Origin: Gymnopus androsaceus JB14
Taxonomy: Eukaryota > Basidiomycota > Agaricomycetes > Agaricales > Omphalotaceae
Assembly (NCBI GenBank): GCA_009733575.1
Contig: ML769553.1
Location: forward strand, 62,001-126,000
DNA length: 64,000 nucleotides
Direction of reading: 5' to 3'
Position numbers and translations under genes: made by a program. Under the pieces are notes generated by a model, which worked only from the letters and a program-made list of their open reading frames with translations, was not told the DNA's origin and did no database searches. Positions 39,497 through 52,304 of this stretch are shown here, piece by piece; position 1 is the first letter of the stretch; each line of letters opens with the position of its first letter.

Positions 39497-42400
39497 AGCA
39501 TCAGTTGGGTGCTCTGTGTTATGAGAACCGTGGACAAGATGCACTGGCTGAGGCAGGATGATAGGCTGAAATGTTTCTGCAACTGGTGGGGAGCCCCAGT
39601 GACAGCTCGACCCAGCCTGTTCAATGTCTTCATCAGGTTTATACCCACTGACACACCCATAGGATCTGAGATCTACAACAGACTTGAGGTCAGTAGCCAA
39701 CTCAAAGACGGGTCTATTGCAGACATTGCCTGGGCAAAGAAGGAGGACAGGAGGAAGCCTCACCAGAAAACAGCCCATGCCATTGTCTCCTTCAACACCA
39801 GAGAGGCAGCAAACCAGGTAATCCAAAAGGGAATGTCAATTGGTGGAAAATGGGTTTTTGGCCACCGTGACCAGAAAGACCCACAGCGTTTTATGAAGTG
39901 CCAACAATATGGCCACATCACCAGGGAGTGCACATTGGAGAAAGATGTCTGTGGTCAATGCGGGGATGACCATCAAACCAGTGATTGCATGGCGGCAGTT
40001 GAAAACTTCCACTGCACCGTCTGCAAGCAGCACGACCACACCGCAGCTGACAGAAGATGCCTAACACTCTTGCAGAAAATCTGGGAATGCACTCAGCGAA
40101 ACCCAGAGGCAGGGTATAGGTTGTTCATTATGGATCACCTGGACACCTGGATTAGGGACAGCAACTCCACAAACAATTACAACAAGGACTGGAGGGTCAA
40201 GGTACAGAAAGGATATCACAACCACATGAATGTTGTGAAAGGAGGGAATGGAAGAGGCAGGCTTGCTGGGGGAGCCCACAGGGAAGGGAATAGGGATGTT
40301 TCGGGGTGGCAAATTTTGCTGCTCCAAAATTTGCCGTAATGTACAGCAAATTTTGCCGTGCTCCATAGACTTTGCACTACATCATGCCATAAAATTTTGC
40401 CTCTGCCACTGGCAAATTTTGCTGGCCCAAAACATTCCTAGTGGAATAACTAGCACACCACCGACATCCCAGCTATGCACCCAAAGCCAAAGCCAATCTT
40501 GCCCACGAGGCAACAGCAATGCCAGACCATGAACAATTGAAAGCTTCAGCTGGAGACTGCGAACAATTGAAAGCTTCAGCTGGAGACCACGAACAATCAA
40601 AAGCTTCAGCTGGAGACCGCAAACAATCAAAAGCTTCAGCTGGAGACCATGAACAATTGAAAGCTTCCGCTGGAGACCACAGTCCGAGGATCAAAACCGT
40701 AATCATCCTAATGATCACAGTCATCCTTGCATCATTCCAGAAAGACAACAAGGCAGCTGGGAAGATTATGAGGAAGGTAACTACCAACAATGCTCCCAAC
40801 GAGTAACAACAACAGAAATAAATGAAATGATGACAGACTAACCATTACACAGATCAACACTAATAAATCCAGTACAAGTATGCACAGTTTCATCCATGGA
40901 GAAAAGGGCCAGTCCCACATAATAGCCTTTCAAGAACCCTGGATTGACTTCCAGGGAATGACCAGGGCACTTTATCAATACACCACCGTATACCTGACTA
41001 ATCATTTCAGAGACTTCAAGGAGAAGCGAGTGCAGTCAATCTTGATGGTCAATGCATGGATACCCACTGGAAGCTGGACCCAGATACCAATTGACAGCCC
41101 AGATGTAACAGTGATCCAGATAGTGGGGGATTTTGGAACAATCCGCCTTTTCAACATATACAGCAATGGGCATAACAACGAAACTGTAGACAGCATCAGG
41201 AGGTGGAGCAACACAAATGAAGCAAGAGATGCACCTAGAAGACCCATCCACACCATATAGCTGGGGGATTTCAATCGCCATCATCCAATGTGGGACGAGC
41301 CTCGAAACCACCACTTGTTTACCACTCAAAACCTCAACACCGCGGAGCGACTCCTTGCAGCAATTGCAGAACAGGGCCTCTTCATGGCGCTTCCGGAATC
41401 CATCCCTACCCTCAAGTCCTTCACCACAGGAAATTACACCAGAGTTGATAACGTATTTTGCTCAAAACAGATCCTTGAACAAGTAATATGATGTGATACG
41501 ATACCGCATTTTCAACCCACTAACACCAACCACTTCCCAATAGAGACTGTAATAGATGTAGGGATAGAAACAATAGATCAGCACCAGAAAAGGGACTGGA
41601 AAAAGGTGGACTGGCATACCTTTCGAGAGAAGCTGGAGGAGAGACCAAAGACAGTAGCAGAGCCAAAGGAAATAGAGGATGAGGAGGAGTTCAGGGCAAG
41701 GTTGAAGGAGCTGGATGGGGCAATTGTGGAAATAATAGAAGAAGAGGTTCTGATTGTGAAGCCCAGCCCAATGCAGCGAAGATGGTGGACGGGGGAGCTG
41801 ACAAAACTACAACGAATCTGAAACAACTTGGGGGGGAAATCATTCAGAAAGAGGGCGCAGGCCGACCACCTAGTACACGAGGAATACTGGAGGGCTTGAC
41901 AAACTATGTCGGCAGAAATAAAGAAAGCAAAGGTAGAGAAATGGGTGGAATTTTTAACAGAGGCCGATGCAAGCACAATGTGGAAGATAGGATGGATGGT
42001 GGAGGTGGGACCAAGATGGGGGAAAACCAGGATTCCGGAGCTGTTGGTGAGGGAAGGAGGGATCAAGAAAGTGGTTCAGGATAATGCAGGAAAGGTTGAG
42101 GCTTTCAAGCAGGCATTCTTCCCACTGCCACCGGCGTCATCAAATATTCCTGCAAACCCCGTATATCTGCTGCCAGCATGGGAATTTCAACCTCCAACCA
42201 ATCAGCAAATTACTGCCACTTTTAGGAAGATGAAGAACAGCAAGGCAACATGTTCAGGCACATTCCCAAACGACCTCTACAAAGCCATAGCAGCATCCTC
42301 ATCCCATTTCTGGGCCCAATCTACAGGGCTACTTTTACCCTGGGGGTATACCCTGAGGATTGGGCCCTAATTGAAACTCATTCTGTGGAAGCCAGGAAAA

Positions 42401-44850
42401 CCAGACTACAGAATTCCAGGCACTCAATGCCCAATCATCCTCTTTCATGGCCATGCAAGGGCTCTTAATGCCTGCATAGCAGACGAAATTACGCACCAAG
42501 TGGAGATCCTGGGTCTGATTCCACCACAGCAATTTGGAGCACATCCAGGCAGGAATACCACTGATTCAATACATATGATGGTCAACAGCATCAAGGATGC
42601 ATGGAAGAAAGGACAGGTTGCATCTGTACTCTACATGGACGTCAAGGGCATGTTCCCGAGCATTGATCTCCAAATGCTCTATCACAAACTTCAAATGCTA
42701 GGCGTCCCAAACAAGCTGGTGGATTGGCTGGGGAGGAGATATACGAATTGGACCACACAAATGCTATTCGATGATTTTGTTTCTGAGCCAATGAAGGTAG
42801 TCGGAGGGGAGGACCAGGGAGACCTGGCAGTGGGAATTGGATACATCCTCTATGCTGCAGGAATTTTGGGCACGTTTAGGAAGGAAGAGAAGGAAGAGGG
42901 CTTTGGTTTTATGGACAATGTTGCAGCAATGAGGGTAGGTGACAACGTGGAGGAAACTCACAAGGGGCTAGGCAACCTTATGGCAAGAGATGGAGGAGTT
43001 TTGGAGTGGGTGAAGAAACACAACTGCTCATTTGGTATCGACAAATTCAAATTAATAGATTTTACATGGAAAGAGAAAAGGCTAAAGGGGGAACACAGAC
43101 AGTACTCGATACAATAGAGATAGGGGGGAAAAAGACAGTAACACTAGGAAGAAAGGGAAAAGGGGGAATAAAGACAGTTTTGGTAAAGGAGCCAGGAGTT
43201 TGGATTGGCGAATTGGTAGTAGAATTGGAGGATAGTGCGAGGTTTCTGGGAATGGAGATGGACAAGGCCTTATGGTGGAAGGAGCAGCATTCAATAATGG
43301 TGAGGAAGGGGCAGGGATGGCTGGTACAGTTCTGAAGGCTCACAAGGAGGATGAAGGACGGGATGGCGGGATACCATATTTGACAACTCTACAAGTCAAA
43401 GGCCATTCTGCGCATGCTTTATGCAGCGGACATTGCTCTGGCACCACAGCGGAAGCAACGGAAGGGGCAGATGGCGGGAAAAACCCAGGTCTTACAACGG
43501 CTCACCTCCATTCAGTGTCAGGCTGCCATCTTGACTTCAGGAGCAATGTCAATGATGGCAACAGATATACTTAACATCCACACAGCACTAATCCCGCTCG
43601 ACCTTGAAGTGGAAAGGCAGAGACATAGAGCAGTAGTACGGCTGACCACCCTTCCAAATACGCACCCAATTGCTCCGCGAGTCGCTGCAGCTGCCAGAAA
43701 CACACAATGCACCTGCCATCTCTCACTGCTGCATGATCTCATGTGTGCTTACAACTTGAAACCACAGCTTATTGAGATGAAGCAGTCAGTTAGGTTCGAG
43801 TCCAGTTGGGACCCCAAGCTTGAAGTTTGGATTGCGGAAGGGAAGGAAGAGGCACTGAAGATGTTGGAGGAGGACAATGCGGATGTCCAGTGCTTCTCAG
43901 ATGGGTCGGGTTACAAAGGAGGAGTAGGAGCAGCCTCAGTCCTGTTCAGTAACAGTATGGAGAAGGGGGTATTATGCTTTAGGTTGGGCTCAGATCAGGA
44001 CCACAAGGTCTACAAAGGGGAATGCATGGGCCTAAGCTTGGCTCTCCACCAGGCTCTCCAGCAGCAGCTAACCATACAGAAGCTCTCCATCTGGGTAGAC
44101 AACACATTCTCCATCACTGCCACCAACACTCCCGCTACAGGTCCATCCCATTATCTGCTTGATATCTTCCACTCTCTTCTTCTTGAATTCCACCAAGCCC
44201 ACCCGGATGCAACGGTCTGTATTTGCTGGGTACCAGGCCATATAGGAGCTTGGGGGAACAAAAGGGCAGACAAGGAAGCAAAGAGAGCAGCGTCAACACA
44301 GTCAAGCCCCAAAACCAAGCTACCACCACAACTTTGTCAGTCTCTACCCAAGAGCCAAACAGCGGTTGTCTGAGTTTTCAAATGGGAGCTTGACAAGCAC
44401 CACAATTGAACCTGGAAGCAGTCTCCACAGTACAGGAAGTTTAAGTGTATCGACCCATCCACTGCCACAGCTGCCAGTCAAGCTTATTGGAAGCTATCCA
44501 GAAAGCTACTGAGGAAGCTTCTCTCAATCCTCATGCAGCTTTGTACAGGTCACGCTCCACTTCAAAAACATCTATATGCCATCCACCGAGCTGATGAACC
44601 AACCTGCCCATGCTGCAAGCAACATCCGGAGACAGTCTACCATTTTCTCATGGAGTGCCTGGCCCACAAAAACTCGCAAGATTGCCTGAGGAGGAGGATC
44701 AGACAAAGGAATTTCACATACTCGGCGCTTCTCACAACAGTGGAGTCACTAAGGGATTTCTTCCAGTATATAAACGAGACAGGGAGGTTCCGCCACATAG
44801 TTGGGGAACTCCCAGAATGGGGAGCAGAGGAGTAGGAGGGTTCAGAGGAG
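39497..44850 (+). pseudogene. Decayed LINE with ORF1, endonuclease, reverse transcriptase and RNase H
   Basis: ORF1 is open at 39509-40339 and encodes a gag-like protein with zinc-knuckle remnants (KCQQYGHITREC, CGQCGDDHQTSDC). The endonuclease lies at 40880-41490 (IIAFQEPWIDF, LFNIYSNGH, then LGDFNRHHPMWDEP) and is broken by an in-frame TAG at about 41258, just before LGDFNRHH. The reverse transcriptase at about 41900-43100 shows LYMDVKGMFPSID and degenerate EDQGDLAVGIGYILYAAG and GFMDNVA, where Asn replaces the second catalytic Asp. RNase H at 43880-44330 keeps DGSGYKGGVG, YKGECMGLSLAL and CWVPGHIGAWGNKRADKEAK. At least four frame changes separate these blocks. The element is inactive. A C-terminal zinc-ribbon-like stretch (CPCCKQHPETVYHFLMEC) is at 44600-44660. 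Confidence 0.9.
40529..40680 (+). repeat. Five 30-bp tandem repeats in the LINE ORF1 tail
   Basis: Five units of GAACAATYRAAAGCTTCAGC plus TGGAGACCRC encode a ten-residue repeat EQLKASAGDH in an open frame at 40519-40806. Just upstream, 40305-40440 holds four GCAAATTTTGC words in both orientations, possibly a separate small insertion. Confidence 0.85.
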
Positions 44851-46234: not shown

Positions 46235-49200
46235 TCAATCATTCTGTGGGCAAATGAGTATGTAAGTATAGATTAATAGTTATAGATAGGGAACTTTGAA
46301 AACAAAACATTTACCAGAAGGTTATTGAGAACAACATTGAGAAACCACTCTTTCAAATCATCCTCGGACATTGTGTCAAGTTGGGCCAATCCTACAGCAT
46401 TTCCCACAGATTCAGGCCTGGTGGAAGAAAGGTACTTTTGGGCGGATTCCTCTATGGTCTGTATATACAAGCCAATGTATGGCTTGTTCCAGAAGGAATG
46501 AGTTGCAATAATAAGGGTGCCTGAATATTGAGAAGGAGAGTGAGTGGAGAATGACATTGACATGGAAATTGTAGTGAAAGTTCCCAACCTGCATAATAAT
46601 TGAGGCAAACTTGTTTAGAGTAAGAATTATTCTGCAATATTCAGGAAGGAGTAAATAAGAGTATGTGTAGCAAGGGATTGATAACATACTAGTTTGGTTT
46701 GGAGTAAGCCAGTGAAAAGTTTGGCCTGAAGTATTGGAGGTATATAGAAGTATTACAATTGAAGACCAATAGTAAGATAATGATGGACTGACAAGCTAGA
46801 CAATTACATCCCAAAACACATAACATGGGTCAGTAGATGGAAGAGGTAGAGAGCACAGGAAGATGAACTTACATCCTAGAGGTGCATAGGTACCCAGCAT
46901 AGGTCAGTAGGTGGAGGAGGTGACAAGTACAGGAAGATGAACTTACATGCTAGAGAATGCACAGGTACCCAGCATAGGTCAGTAGGTGGAGGGAGTGGCA
47001 AGTACAGGAAGATGAACTTACAACCTAGAGAATGCACAGGTACCCAGCATAGGTCAGTAGGTGGAGGAAGTGGCAAGTACAGGAAGATGAACTTACAAAC
47101 TAGAGAATGCACAGGTACCCAGCATAGGTCAGTAGGTGGAGGAAGTGGCAAGTACAGGAAGATGAACTTACAAACTAGAGAATGCACAGATACCCAGCAT
47201 AGGTCAGTAGGTGGAGGAATAGCAAGTACAGGAAGATGAACTTACACGCTAGAGAATGCACAGATACCCAGCATAGGTCAGTAGGTGGAGGAAGTGGCAA
47301 GTACAGGAAGATGAACTTACATCCTAGAGAATGCACAGGTACCCAGCATAGGTCAGTAGGTAGAGGAAGTGGCAAGTACAGGAAGATGAACTTACACCCT
47401 AGAGAATGCACAGGTACCCAGCATAGGTCAGTAGGTGGAGGAAGTAGCAAGTACAGGAAGATGAACTTACATACTAGAGAATGCACAGGTACCCAGCATA
47501 GGTCAGTAGGTGGAGGAAGTAGCAAGTACAGGAAGATGAACTTACAACCTAGAGAATGCACAGGTACCCAGCATAGGTCAGTAGGTGGAGGAGGTGGCAA
47601 GTACAGGAAGATGAACTTACACCCTAGAGAATACACAGGTACCCAGCATAGGTCAGTAGGTGGAGGAAGTAGCAAGTACAGGAAGATGAACTTACATCCT
47701 AGAGAATGCACAGGTACCCAGCATAGGTCAGTAGGTGGAGGTGGTGGCAAGTACAGGAAGATGAACTTACATGCTAGAGAATACACAGGTACCCAGCATA
47801 GGTCAGTAGGTGGAGGAGGTGGCAAGTACAGGAAGATGAACTTACATGCTAGAGAATACACAGGTACCCAGCATAGGTCAGTAGGTGGAGGAGGTGGCAA
47901 GTACAGGAAGATGAACTTACATCCTAGAGAATACACAGGTACCCAGCATAGGTCAGTAGGTGGATGAGGTGGCAAGTACAGGAAGATGAACTTACAAACT
48001 AGAGAATGCACAGGTACCCAGCATAGGTCAGTAGGTGGAGGAGGTGGCAAGTACAGGAAGATGAACTTACATCCTAGAGAATACACAGGTACCCAGCATA
48101 GGTCAGTAGGTGGATGAGGTGGCAAGTACAGGAAGATGAACTTACAAACTAGAGAATGCACAGGTACCCAGCATAGGTCAGTAGGTGGAGGAGGTGGCAA
48201 GTACAGGAAGATGCTTACATGCTAGAGAATGCACAGGTACCCAGCATAGGTCAGTAGGTGGAGGAAGTGGCAAGTACAGGAAGATGAACTTACAATCTAG
48301 AGAATGCACAGGTACCCAGCATAGGTCAGTAGGTGGAGGAAGTGGCAGGTACAGGAAGATGAACTTACAACCTAGAGAATGCACAGATACCCAGCATAGG
48401 TCAGTAGGTGGAGGAAGTGGCAGGTACAGGAAGATGAACTTACACCCTAGAGAACGCACAGATACCCAGCATAGGTCAGTAGGTGGAGGAAGTAGCAAGT
48501 ACAGGAAGATGAACTTACATCCTAGAGAATGCACAGGTACCCAGCATAGGTCAGTAGGTGAAGGAAGTAGCAAGTACAGGAAGATGAACTTACAACCTAG
48601 AGAATGCACAGGTACCCAGCATAGGTCAGTAGGTGGAGGAAGTAGCAAGTACAGGAAGATGAACTTACAACCTAGAGAATGCACAGGTACCCAGCATAGG
48701 TCAGTAGGTGGAGGAAGTGGGAAGTACAGGAAGATGAACTTACAACCTAGAGAATGCACAGGTACCCAGCATAGGTCAGTAGGTGGAGGAAGTAGCAAGT
48801 ACAGGAAGATGAACTTACAGTCTAGAGAATGCATAGGTACCCAGCATACATCAGTAGGTGGAGGAGGTGACAAGTACAAGAAGATGAACTTACAACCTAG
48901 AGAATGCACAGGTACCCAGCATAGGTCAGTAGGTGGAGGAAGTAGCAAGTACAGGAAGATGAACTTACATCCTAGAGAATACACAGGTACCCAGCATAGG
49001 TCAGTAGGTGGAGGAGGTGGCAAGTACAGAAAGATGAACTTACATCCTAGAGAATGCACAGGTACCCAGCATAGGTCAGTAGGTGGATGAGGTGGCAAGT
49101 CCAGGAAGATGAACTTACATCCTAGAGAATGCACAGGTACCCAGCATAGGTCAGTAGGTGGAGGAGGTGGCAGGTCCAGGAAGATGAACTTACATACTAG

Positions 49201-50918
49201 AGAATGCACAGGTACCCAGCATAGGTCAGCAGGTGGAGGAGGTGGCAAGTACAGGAAGATGAACTTACATGCTAGAGAATGCACAGGTACCCAGCATAGG
49301 TCAGCAGGTGGAGGAGGTGGCAAATCTAGGAAGATGAGCTTACACTCTAGAGAATCATATTCCAATCATTTCCCCCAGGAATTAAGGATAGATCAGTTGC
49401 AGATTGAGAATCCAGGATTCAGGACTTACATTCTGAACAGTGCATCAATATCCACCATTTGTCAAATGGTCTCCTCACAAAATGAAATCTACAAGCTCAC
49501 AAACTATGCAATCCAGGGTTAGGTCAGAACTCTGATCACCTCAGAACCATTGCTTACGCACATGAAAATGTGGAAACCATACTTAGTATATCTTTTAATT
49601 TTTCGGTCATAAATGTATTGAACTGTTGTGGCATTGAGTATTCCAAGGATGGCTGTATTCCACAGTATACATACATTGTTGCCAAGGACCAATTTCTTCA
49701 TTCTACCAATGATTTTAACATTCCATTCTTTTTTTGTTCTGTTAAGACAATCAGTATCCTGTAAGTGTCCAAAATAGTGTTCTACTCTACCATCATACAC
49801 AATGGACCTAATAGCTCTTTTGATGACAAGGTTCAAGTTGCATTGTTGCACAGAAACAAGCAGTAGCTGCAAAACAATGTTATCAATTGCATTTGATGTT
49901 TTTTCAATCAGTTCTGCACACTGTGGCTGTGCTCTTTCAAGCCCTTTTTGCATGTCTGTATAATATCATTTAACCCCCAAATATTTCTTACTTTTGTCAT
50001 TTACACACCTTCCATGAAGATAAATCCCTTAGGTTCAAAACTAGCTTCAAGTTTTACTCGGTCCACCAGGCCCTCCAAGTACTTCTTGACATGATCTGGC
50101 AATTGTTTTTTTATTTCCATGCGATTGATCCCTTTGTCCCTAAGTTCTTTTGTTATTTTGGTCCGCTGTGCATCACATTTTGTAAACACAGTAATCACAG
50201 GAACTACATGATATTATTTCTGTGGAATCAGATGTCTACAAACCAATCTGCTTACCTGAATGAGTTCCTTCTTTGAAGAAATTCATTTCAGTGGGTAACA
50301 ATGGGCGATCCTCATCCACAGGTAAGCATATCCTTGTGTGACAATGTGGACCAGTATTAGGAACATTCAGGAGTATGACAGTCATGGAGCAAAACATACC
50401 AGATGGCATGTAGCTGTTCTTTTAAAGTATTTGCTTCCGACCGGGCTTTGATGAATGCATGAACAGTTTTCATCTCTCCACTTGATCCCGATTCAAAGCC
50501 ACCAGAGTCATGAAAGACAAATCCAGGATTGGCCTCATAAGTGATTTCATTATTTATATCATGGATTCCACGCTGGTGAAATGCTTTGGAACTATTGATC
50601 TCCCAATGAATATTGGACATTCATACCTCCGAGCTGGGCCGAATATCGATCTTGATCAATTGTAGTTATTTATTGCGTTGGCAAAGTAGTTTTGTAGTGA
50701 CACACCTTGTTCCCATTTCTATCATGCACTATAGGTGGATCCTCGGTATTGCACATCATTTGACAAATGGTTGTTTTTCCTGCGTTGGCTCGACCAATGA
50801 CCAGAATCCGAAATTGTCCACACATATTACGAAGTCTAAGTAGTTCATCAGAGTCCATTGGTTCAGTCACTGACTCTGGAGAGGAACGGTGAATGTCTGT
50901 TTGAGTATCGGAAGACAT
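46235..50918 (-). CDS. P-loop GTP-binding protein, multi-exon, containing the intron array
   Basis: Exon 1 (from ATG 50918) reads FRILVIGRANAGKTTICQ, a Walker A/G1 motif. The next exons read ERGIHDINNEI, NPGFVFHDSGGFESGS (G3 region, H-D-S-G-G), KEQLHAIWY, PVITVFTKCDAQ (G4, TKCD), DHVKKYLEGLVDRVKLEA and AELIEKTSNAIDNIVLQLL. This matches a P-loop GTPase family that I know from mushroom genomes; it has no assigned function. Splice joins are in phase, for example GNK-IDIRPSSE-RGIHDI. Downstream the gene enters the 75-bp array. Beyond the array an exon reads TLIIATHSFWNKPYIG, then LDTMSEDDLKEWFLNVVLNNLL, and a last short exon ends at TGA 46235. That this 3' exon belongs to the same gene is inferred from strand, open frame and splice sites, not shown. 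The exon just before the array (about 49430-49520) is weak. Confidence 0.72.
46796..49429 (-). repeat. 75-bp tandem array in which each unit resembles a complete spliceosomal intron (34 junctions)
   Basis: On the minus strand every unit runs GTAAGTTCATCTTCC, then a pyrimidine-rich stretch, CTACTGACC (branch-like), no AG for about 28 nt, then GCATTCTCTAG, 72 nt in all, followed by 3 nt before the next GTAAGT. Regular units cover about 46866-49345. The first intron (from 49429) and the last (ending 46796) share donor and acceptor but differ inside. The 3-nt segment is always NNT and its two N positions vary: GA 9 times, GT 7, CA 5, TT 4, GG 3, TA 2, and CG, AT, AC and AG once each. Elsewhere units differ at a few positions only. 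Because the unit is a multiple of three, both strands hold long open frames of 25-residue repeats, which I regard as by-products. Confidence 0.9.
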
Positions 50919-51741
50919 TACTGAAGTGAAGGAGGCAGTTCAATAGATGGGATATCTAAACCCTAAGATCCCAGGACCTTTATATAACAAAACTGCATAC
51001 CTATTTTTCCTCTCACGTTGCTCCGATATACTGTACAGAATCATCCAATTTGATGACCTATTACTAAGTACTCTGGTGTTTTCATCTCTCTGGAGTATCA
51101 TGGGACTGAGTCAATTGACACCATCCTAGTTCGCAAAAAATGAAAATTACTACTTATTTGTACTTATAGTTTCCTCTCACGTAGCTTTGGGATCGGAAAG
51201 CCTGCTGACCTTCATATAAATATAAATATCAACACTAATACACTCACCTGTGCTAGTGACACTTCACATCACCACATGGTCAGGAGTATCTTGATATAAC
51301 CTTGCCGTAATTTTCCCCATCAACTGCCTAGCACCTGCAACGCTCTCCCTTTAGCATAAAATGGCAATAAACCGATGATCCCAGTTGTAGAGGGGAGTAT
51401 GGCAACACTTTAATGTTTTTATTATCCTCAGATCTGTTGGAGTAAGTACTCCGAACGATACCACACGCTTTGACTTCCCTCTTCTAGTTATGCCTATGTT
51501 TATCCGGCTTCGTGGTTTCGGCTAACCTACGTCGATCGTATGATCGACATATATACCTGACCGACAGATGTTTGCTCCCTCAGTTGTACCGTATATCTTA
51601 CGTCCAACGGTAAGATTTGCTTTATTCACTTTGTTAGGAACAAGTCTAAAAGACTACTTTAAAGTGTAATAAGTAAATAAGTGCGTAAGTATTGAGTTTA
51701 TGCGCAAAAGGGGTCACTTGTGCAGACAATGACTACAAAAA
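50919..51741. other. Upstream region of the GTPase gene, no other gene seen
   Basis: It presumably contains the GTPase promoter. No further coding region was recognised. Confidence 0.35.
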
Positions 51742-51817
51742 TTATACTAAGTTGTTTAACAAGAGTTATAAGACTTCGATTATACTAAGTTGTTTAACAA
51801 GAGTTATAAGACTTCGA
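51742..51817. repeat. Perfect 38-bp tandem duplication
   Basis: A unit beginning TTATACTAAGTTG and ending AGACTTCGA occurs twice back to back (51742-51779, 51780-51817) without a mismatch, indicating a very recent duplication. Confidence 0.9.
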
Positions 51818-52304
51818 TAGTTTGGGCGCTTACCGTGGGAAATTATGCATAAACAGCGCTAAAGAGTCGGGGCAATAATTTGGGCGGGTTGTCAAGTTTT
51901 TTGAACTCTTTTATCGTGCGTATAGGTAAGACTAAAGTACCAAGACACGGGAGATGCAGCAAATATGCACCTCCATTCTATGTAGCGTATGTATCGAGAA
52001 ATGGTGAAGCTACAAGTGTTGGTAGGTATCGGAAGGGTTGTGTAATAAATCGTTGGTCAGGCCCATGGCCTTGAGGTATAGAATAAATAAAACATGAAGC
52101 ATGGAGCATGGAGTGTATCGCGCACGCTGCCCCACTTGAAGTGAGGAAAGGTGTCAGGGCAAAACCAAGTCCACTTTCAGGCGTAACCGCACTGTGGCCA
52201 TTTGGCTCTTGCTGGATCTTGGGCGGCATCTCCAGCATTCCTCGTATGCCAGAGACACCAAAACCCACGCTACCGGCGGCGAAACCGGCGCATCAACACC
52301 TTGG
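51818..52304. other. Unassigned region with an exon-like minus-strand frame
   Basis: The minus strand is open at about 51978-52290 and reads AGFAAGSVGFGVSG, then GMLEMPPKIQQEPNGH and SGLGFALTPFL. The glycine- and alanine-rich start could be a small membrane protein or a chance frame. No family was recognised. Confidence 0.25.

Follow-up and report, generated by a model that had tools for sequence, protein, structure and literature searches.

A tandem array of introns and putative three-nucleotide exons in a GTPase gene

The window analysed here is a stretch of 64,000 nucleotides from Gymnopus androsaceus JB14 (contig ML769553.1, positions 62,001 to 126,000), and it carries on its minus strand a GTPase gene that contains a tandem array with a period of 75 bp. 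Judging from its sequence, this array is probably a coding tract of one-codon exons, in which each unit is composed of one short spliceosomal intron and one codon. The evidence comes from the anatomy of the array, its recurrence in the genome, the reading phase in the modelled copies, the absence of stop codons, and a variability that is specific to the codon.

Inside the gene, 37 consecutive 3-nt exons, with 36 introns between them, are found on the minus strand from 49503 to 46793. Thirty of these introns are 72 nt long, and the others are 68, 83, 70, 71, 71, and 77 nt. The 75-bp tandem array holds 34 of the 37 microexons. Tandem Repeats Finder reports a period of 75 at 46824–49355 with 33.8 copies, 94% matches and 0% indels, in agreement with the roughly 33 units of 75 bp described in an earlier note on this DNA. 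When the minus strand is cut at each CTAG-NNN-GTAAG, 34 junctions result. Of 34 introns listed, 32 start with GTAAGT and two with GTAAGC; the GTAAGT donor is thus in register, as had been claimed. Among the 33 window units that pass the mismatch filter described below, the intron is 72 nt in 30, 71 nt in two and 70 nt in one, and the exon is 3 nt in all 33, which bears out the intron length and the 3-nt distance between an acceptor and the next donor given in the same note. Its statement that no AG lies between the branch site and the acceptor holds in the common unit, from CTGAC to the final CTAG.

The earlier note considered the array as a tandem amplification of a whole intron in a GTPase gene. 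The sense orientation and the signals in register agree with this. The description is incomplete, because the repeat unit includes a hypervariable codon in addition to the intron. The results below also support points beyond it: the flanking exons fit the codon in phase 0, and the design recurs at 21 or more other loci, which bring in three additional, unrelated intron sequences and another gene family.

The 3-nt exon has the form NNT, where NN is hypervariable. The three microexons adjoining non-repeat introns, the first two and the last, are likewise NNT. Translated, the codon series of the window reads FNSHYDDDVTVVVDGVIHFDFDHHDGVYGDRFFVHDL.

A scan for chains of consecutive non-stop 3-nt exons spaced by 45–110 nt links 36 exons on the minus strand of the window, versus 1 on the plus strand. 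Admitting the last donor (GTCAG) raises the chain to 37. Five Markov-resampled windows give chains of at most 2, and GTPase paralogues without an array (L020–L022 and L027–L030) give 1 or 2. The scan understates several arrays, since it breaks at odd donors.

Recurrence in the genome

Arrays were searched for by a generic pattern, at paralogue loci and with the known units. At least 22 arrays are present in the genome, 14 loci in GTPase genes and 8 loci in a second gene family. This is a lower bound, because searches with known units cannot count other types. The arrays fall into five types. Type A (75 bp in the window) is found at six loci: the window, C9, C43/C440, C111, C297, and C824. C43 and C440 are counted as one array broken by the assembly: both contigs end inside the array (C43 at its end, L010; C440 at its start, L013), and the end units and codons match in order. 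Type B (64 bp) is represented by C425, with 58 kept units. Type C (70 bp) comprises C514, C497, and C200 (40, 27, and 10 kept units). Type D (76 bp) comprises C137 (37, plus a reversed piece of 4), C161 (40), C72 (33), and C331 (35). Type E (71 bp) is seen at C82 (38 and 9), C267 (35, 7, and 9), C152 (32), C765 (17), and C7 (14). The mode of the intron length ranges from 61 to 76 nt among array pieces. Periods of 64, 70, 71, 76, and 79 bp are seen, which excludes read-through coding.

When the five consensus introns are aligned locally, only B and C prove related, over 32 nt (score 44, reached by 0 of 500 shuffles). A versus E gives an uncorrected P of 0.04, and all other pairs give at least 0.1. 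The five types thus represent four unrelated intron lineages. The 32-nt likeness is seen between L015 (C425) and L016, L018, and L019, while the rest of the intron differs. Units may have been rearranged when a new array was founded.

Types A to D lie in GTPase genes at 14 loci, with the array on the strand of the gene. Type E belongs to a different gene family (L031–L038), recognizable by MSS..IPPVTSLSGPHQLF.GAHDFQ..TFQVASGDI.. Each of the seven other E loci gives a match to fragments of the C82 gene on the strand of the array, a weak one in the case of L033. Three fragments of the type E host protein have no Pfam match. Unit searches return almost only array copies in the two gene families; weak single matches exist, for example at C587.

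Two array loci show other features. At C514 (L017), a run of N lies at the array site. In C111, one unit contains an insertion of about 490 bp (L011:4905–5397) with short inverted termini by eye, AGGGGTG.. and ..CACCCCT. It is probably a small DNA transposon.

Splice signals and the variable codon

For statistics, 24 array pieces were segmented by wraparound alignment, and 621 units were kept. Units with more than 14 intron mismatches (type A) or with mismatches over 24% of the unit length (other types) were dropped; this filter takes out flanks, one inserted element, and end units. From C43, 18 of 27 filtered units were excluded as well, because of overlap with C440 or a poor contig end.

Of the 621 exons, 606 have 3 nt, and the remaining 15 have 2, 4, or 5 nt. 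Arrays whose kept units include no off-length exon are, among others, those of the window, C824, C9, C297, C514, C161, C331, C82 (both pieces), and C7. The donor is GT in 608 units and GC in 6, and the acceptor is AG in 603. Units with GC in place of GT occur, for example, at L009 and L013. By eye, a branch-like motif CTGAC or CTAAC is present in types A, D, and E, and a weaker TTGAT or TTGAC in types B and C. The introns thus have the GT/GC donor, AG acceptor, branch-like motif, and short length of U2-type spliceosomal introns. Mismatches per site amount to 1.2% at the donor and 1.9% at the acceptor, versus 5.9% in the intron body (Fisher p = 1e-16 and 9e-12, respectively, for units that are not independent).

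The introns of the window are about 95% alike. No other position among the 75 of the window unit varies as much as codon positions 1 and 2. Among the 33 window units, the mean pairwise difference is 0.05 in the intron outside the signals, and 0.62, 0.64, and 0 at the three codon positions. In the related units of C9, C43/C440, C111, C297, and C824, it is 0.09–0.20 in the introns, 0.56–0.75 at positions 1 and 2, and 0–0.26 at position 3. Positions 1 and 2 exceed all others in variability in 18 of the 24 array pieces, but not in C43, C514, C497, C200, the 4-unit piece of C137, or C267 (L032). Among 1019 pairs of units with identical introns, the codon differs in 643 and is the same in 376; C425 and C72 supply 839 of these pairs. 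Relative to the modal base, the introns show 1250 transitions and 639 transversions; for the first two codon positions the counts are 170 and 442, respectively, and codon saturation may have some part in this contrast.

The 606 3-nt exons include no stop codon. Their third base is T in 532, A in 43, G in 28, and C in 3. When third bases are shuffled within arrays (486 codons; types A to D and one E array), 6.4 stops are expected, and the probability of none is 0.0005. In family E, TGG accounts for 19 of the 27 codons ending in G, while TGT is seen once. This bias indicates that the third base shifts where it alters the residue. Asp is the most frequent residue of the encoded tracts (26%), followed by Tyr (13%), Leu (11%), Phe (7%), and His (6%), and all 19 Trp are in family E.

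Host gene and reading phase

The paralogue at C824 is open: eight exons (972 nt, phase 0) precede the array and four follow it to the stop. At C297, five upstream and four downstream exons are open. By eye, the array of C425 is preceded by WFPQFV and SIYL and followed by AGSPPKARQLTQLCI, and that of C82 is preceded by ..LQESK and followed by GFQYDDADPFDKVPPSKTEPAFC, with phase 0 on both sides in each case; upstream of the C72 array, ..MPFWRW and GL are also in phase 0 by eye. Phase was modelled in copies of types A, B, D, and E, at C72 on the upstream side only. In a frame test of 469 codons, 148 stops appear when reading starts at the third base and 1 when it starts at the second. The second-base frame is nearly free of stops, and therefore stops alone cannot single out phase 0; the flanking exons do.

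Compared with its paralogues, the window copy has an exon 7 that is one base shorter and an exon 8 that is one base longer, which results in in-frame stops. This copy may be a pseudogene or contain assembly errors, and the case for a coding array draws on other copies as well. A different phase with hydrophobic codons was considered for the window copy and rejected, as the alignment with paralogues reveals it to be an artefact of an indel in this copy. The features of the gene are listed in Table 1.

The host is a G-domain GTPase. PF01926 (MMR_HSR1) is found in the C824 paralogue protein with an E-value of 5.5e-05, and it is the only Pfam match above the cutoff. There are 813 homologues at E ≤ 0.001, distributed across Agaricomycetes among the best 120 listed. 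Three deposited models of array genes stop short of the array or at it.

In the homologues, the array site corresponds to a loop. The protein P0008 (458 aa) has a 51-residue low-complexity insert, partly rich in Y, H, and E, at the site of the C425 array, and its flanks match C425. P0008 is read without introns, since its 458 aa fit on a contig of 1,727 nt; its source is probably cDNA. By eye, P0079 carries YDDDDLLLLLDGLL, P0081 (Mycena metata) carries DDDDDDLLLGFFGRRDDD, P0011 has a W/L/E-rich run, and P0084 has an R/P/D-rich run. A homologue search with the C-terminal part and the loop returned nothing at E ≤ 1, and a search with residues 262–458 of P0008 returned only P0008.

Table 1. Features of the GTPase gene in the window (minus strand).
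Feature	Position	Strand	Remarks
Eight 5' GTPase exons	49562..50918	-	50918-50706, 50650-50627, 50572-50400, 50332-50256 (exons 1-4); 50203-50009, 49955-49791, 49738-49675, 49622-49562 (exons 5-8); exon limits and translation, paralogue alignment
Microexon 1 (TTT)	49501..49503	-	Flanked by non-repeat introns; paralogue alignment
Microexon 2 (AAT)	49430..49432	-	Flanked by non-repeat introns; paralogue alignment
Tandem array	46873..49346	-	34 microexons, AGT 49346-49344 to GAT 46875-46873; introns 70-72 nt
Last microexon (CTT)	46793..46795	-	Diverged 77-nt unit before, non-repeat intron after; donor GTCAGT
3' exons	46235..46725	-	46725-46690 (AKLFTGLLQTKL), 46631-46589, 46520-46315, 46243-46235 with stop

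Other features of the window

Two open reading frames of 329 and 141 aa lie at 43384–44835 on the plus strand; they presumably resemble the RNase H end of a non-LTR retrotransposon. At 51741–51818, some 0.8 kb before the start of the GTPase gene, 38 bp are perfectly duplicated in tandem. A 30-bp repeat with 5.2 copies and 87% matches is seen at 40524–40680.

Alternative explanations

Several observations weigh against a coding tract. Taken singly, only C514 is significant in the stop test (P = 0.006), and this test is inflated because units duplicate. The length is off the mode of the array in 15 of 621 exons and 160 of 621 introns; per nucleotide, indels are not rarer in exons than in introns (0.0081 versus 0.0037). 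Some copies contain 2-, 4-, or 5-nt exons, including three 2-nt exons in C72, and, barring errors of assembly, such copies would be broken. The exon indels of the window copy produce stops of their own. Among the 120 retrieved homologues, a readable tail is present in only 10 and missing in 110, and by eye no obvious run is found in 5 of the 10.

Some of these observations would suit removal of the whole array via the outer sites, either as a single long intron, an alternative raised in the earlier note, or in a small number of large steps; the 3-nt pieces would then be absent from the mRNA and the array would be non-coding. An outer donor and acceptor exist, their direct join is also in frame, and exon length is under no special protection. 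Such removal is nevertheless unlikely. It does not explain why the inner splice dinucleotides are better kept than the intron bodies, why 606 codons contain no stop and have third bases that track the amino acid, why four intron lineages have an identical 3-nt spacer in phase 0, or why P0008 has a low-complexity insert at the array site. The recurrence of this spacer in four lineages and two gene families also argues against an ordinary minisatellite that has spread with its host genes, with splice-like motifs as relics and the variable bases as a mutation hotspot. The arrays are tandem and homogenised, and the window copy looks broken, as such a minisatellite might. However, the splice signals are kept, the three microexons by non-repeat introns are also NNT, and the substitutions at the two bases, with their excess of transversions, are opposite to those of the introns. 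An ordinary minisatellite is thus highly improbable.

Near-identical, young introns next to diverse codons could also result if an ordinary exon existed first and an introner-like element was then inserted between all its codons. This concerns the origin and is compatible with coding. It is very improbable, as insertion would be expected to leave other phases and exon lengths such as 6, 9, and 12 nt in place of the nearly uniform 3 nt, and as the tandem order is kept and the arrays found lie in two gene families. The plus strand of the window array contains open frames of up to 301 codons, which might suggest a repeat protein with 25 codons per unit. These frames are interrupted in the window, and the periods elsewhere are not divisible by 3; a plus-strand repeat protein is refuted by these periods for the array family, and its probability is close to nil.

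Comparison with known systems

To our knowledge, no gene has been described in which a stretch of protein is encoded codon by codon between introns that are nearly identical. An architecture of one-codon exons and near-identical introns was not found in the searched open-licence literature, a search that most subscription papers fall outside. The systems below are compared as far as the available portions of the cited papers describe them.

The micro-exon genes of Schistosoma mansoni have 10–20 exons of 3–81 bp, introns from 100 to about 5,000 bp, and secreted, alternatively spliced products (PMC10526429). Like the arrays, they contain many tiny in-frame exons, of lengths in multiples of 3, and are overlooked by automatic annotation. 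The arrays differ in having one codon per exon, short and near-identical tandem introns, and otherwise ordinary host genes. Aphid megacycle genes have more than 100 microexons, and the bicycle/megacycle genes share with the arrays many small exons in a single phase (PMC9168663). Those exons are larger and almost all in phase 2, and near-identical tandem introns are not reported in the available part of that source. Introners and fungal introner-like elements are also near-identical, recently multiplied introns, scattered into unrelated genes by transposition-like insertion (PMC9860276, PMC4457414). The array introns, in contrast, are tandem within the gene, each copy has its codon, and unit searches find them almost only as array copies in two gene families.

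The hnwd/het-e WD40 genes of Podospora resemble the arrays in that exchange homogenises the repeats while a few codons diversify; diversifying selection acting against homogenisation is described for the hnwd repeats (PMC2873952). There, the entire repeat is coding and codons 7, 9, 25, and 27 vary, whereas only 3 of about 75 bases code in the arrays, and neither NLR nor WD40 domains are among the Pfam matches above the cutoff in the C824 protein. One-nucleotide exons in Fusarium CYP621A (PMC12940212) and in Arabidopsis (PMC4674806) indicate that such small exons can be spliced, in a fungus too; they are single and isolated, unlike the exons of the arrays. In these portions, no compared system combines small exons, multiplied introns, and homogenised repeats with free codons.

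Possible mechanism and implications

If the array is a coding tract, each donor would pair with the following acceptor, about 60–75 nt downstream. Upon removal of each intron, the exon would grow by 3 bases and again adjoin a donor, like a ratchet with one codon per round. Short introns with a donor, a branch-like site, and an acceptor would fit intron definition. As neighbouring introns are 3 nt apart, splicing complexes could hardly occupy both at once, and removal would be sequential or alternate. An intact copy would thereby gain about 35–60 additional residues in frame, after the ..WFPH.. exon and before the helical part that follows, in a variable tract rich in Asp, Tyr, and Leu that might serve as a binding or scaffold loop. 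Because the frame is kept whichever units are skipped, variable isoforms are likely.

Exchange of whole units would lengthen and shorten arrays without shifting the frame, and could account for both the array sizes (7 to 58 kept units) and the homogeneous introns. Exchange would keep the introns alike, while selection for differing residues would keep the codons different. Homogenisation together with diverse codons requires either diversifying selection or a mutator aimed at two bases. We know of no precedent for the latter, and diversifying selection on the microexon codons can be presumed.

It can be speculated, tentatively and with some doubt, that the arrays are a diversity-generating design with one variable codon per tandem repeat. 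The intron would be a long homologous spacer, so that recombination adds, drops, and reshuffles single residues in frame, and microexon skipping would yield a repertoire of isoforms. Such a design would have arisen at least twice, in the GTPases and in the unrelated gene family, and might serve recognition like the hnwd WD40 repeats.

If splicing is confirmed, the arrays would represent an extreme of exon density and a natural system in which to test sequential splicing at 3-nt exons. They would also show introns acting as a scaffold for evolution at the level of the codon, and would reveal a class of variable proteins overlooked by gene finders.

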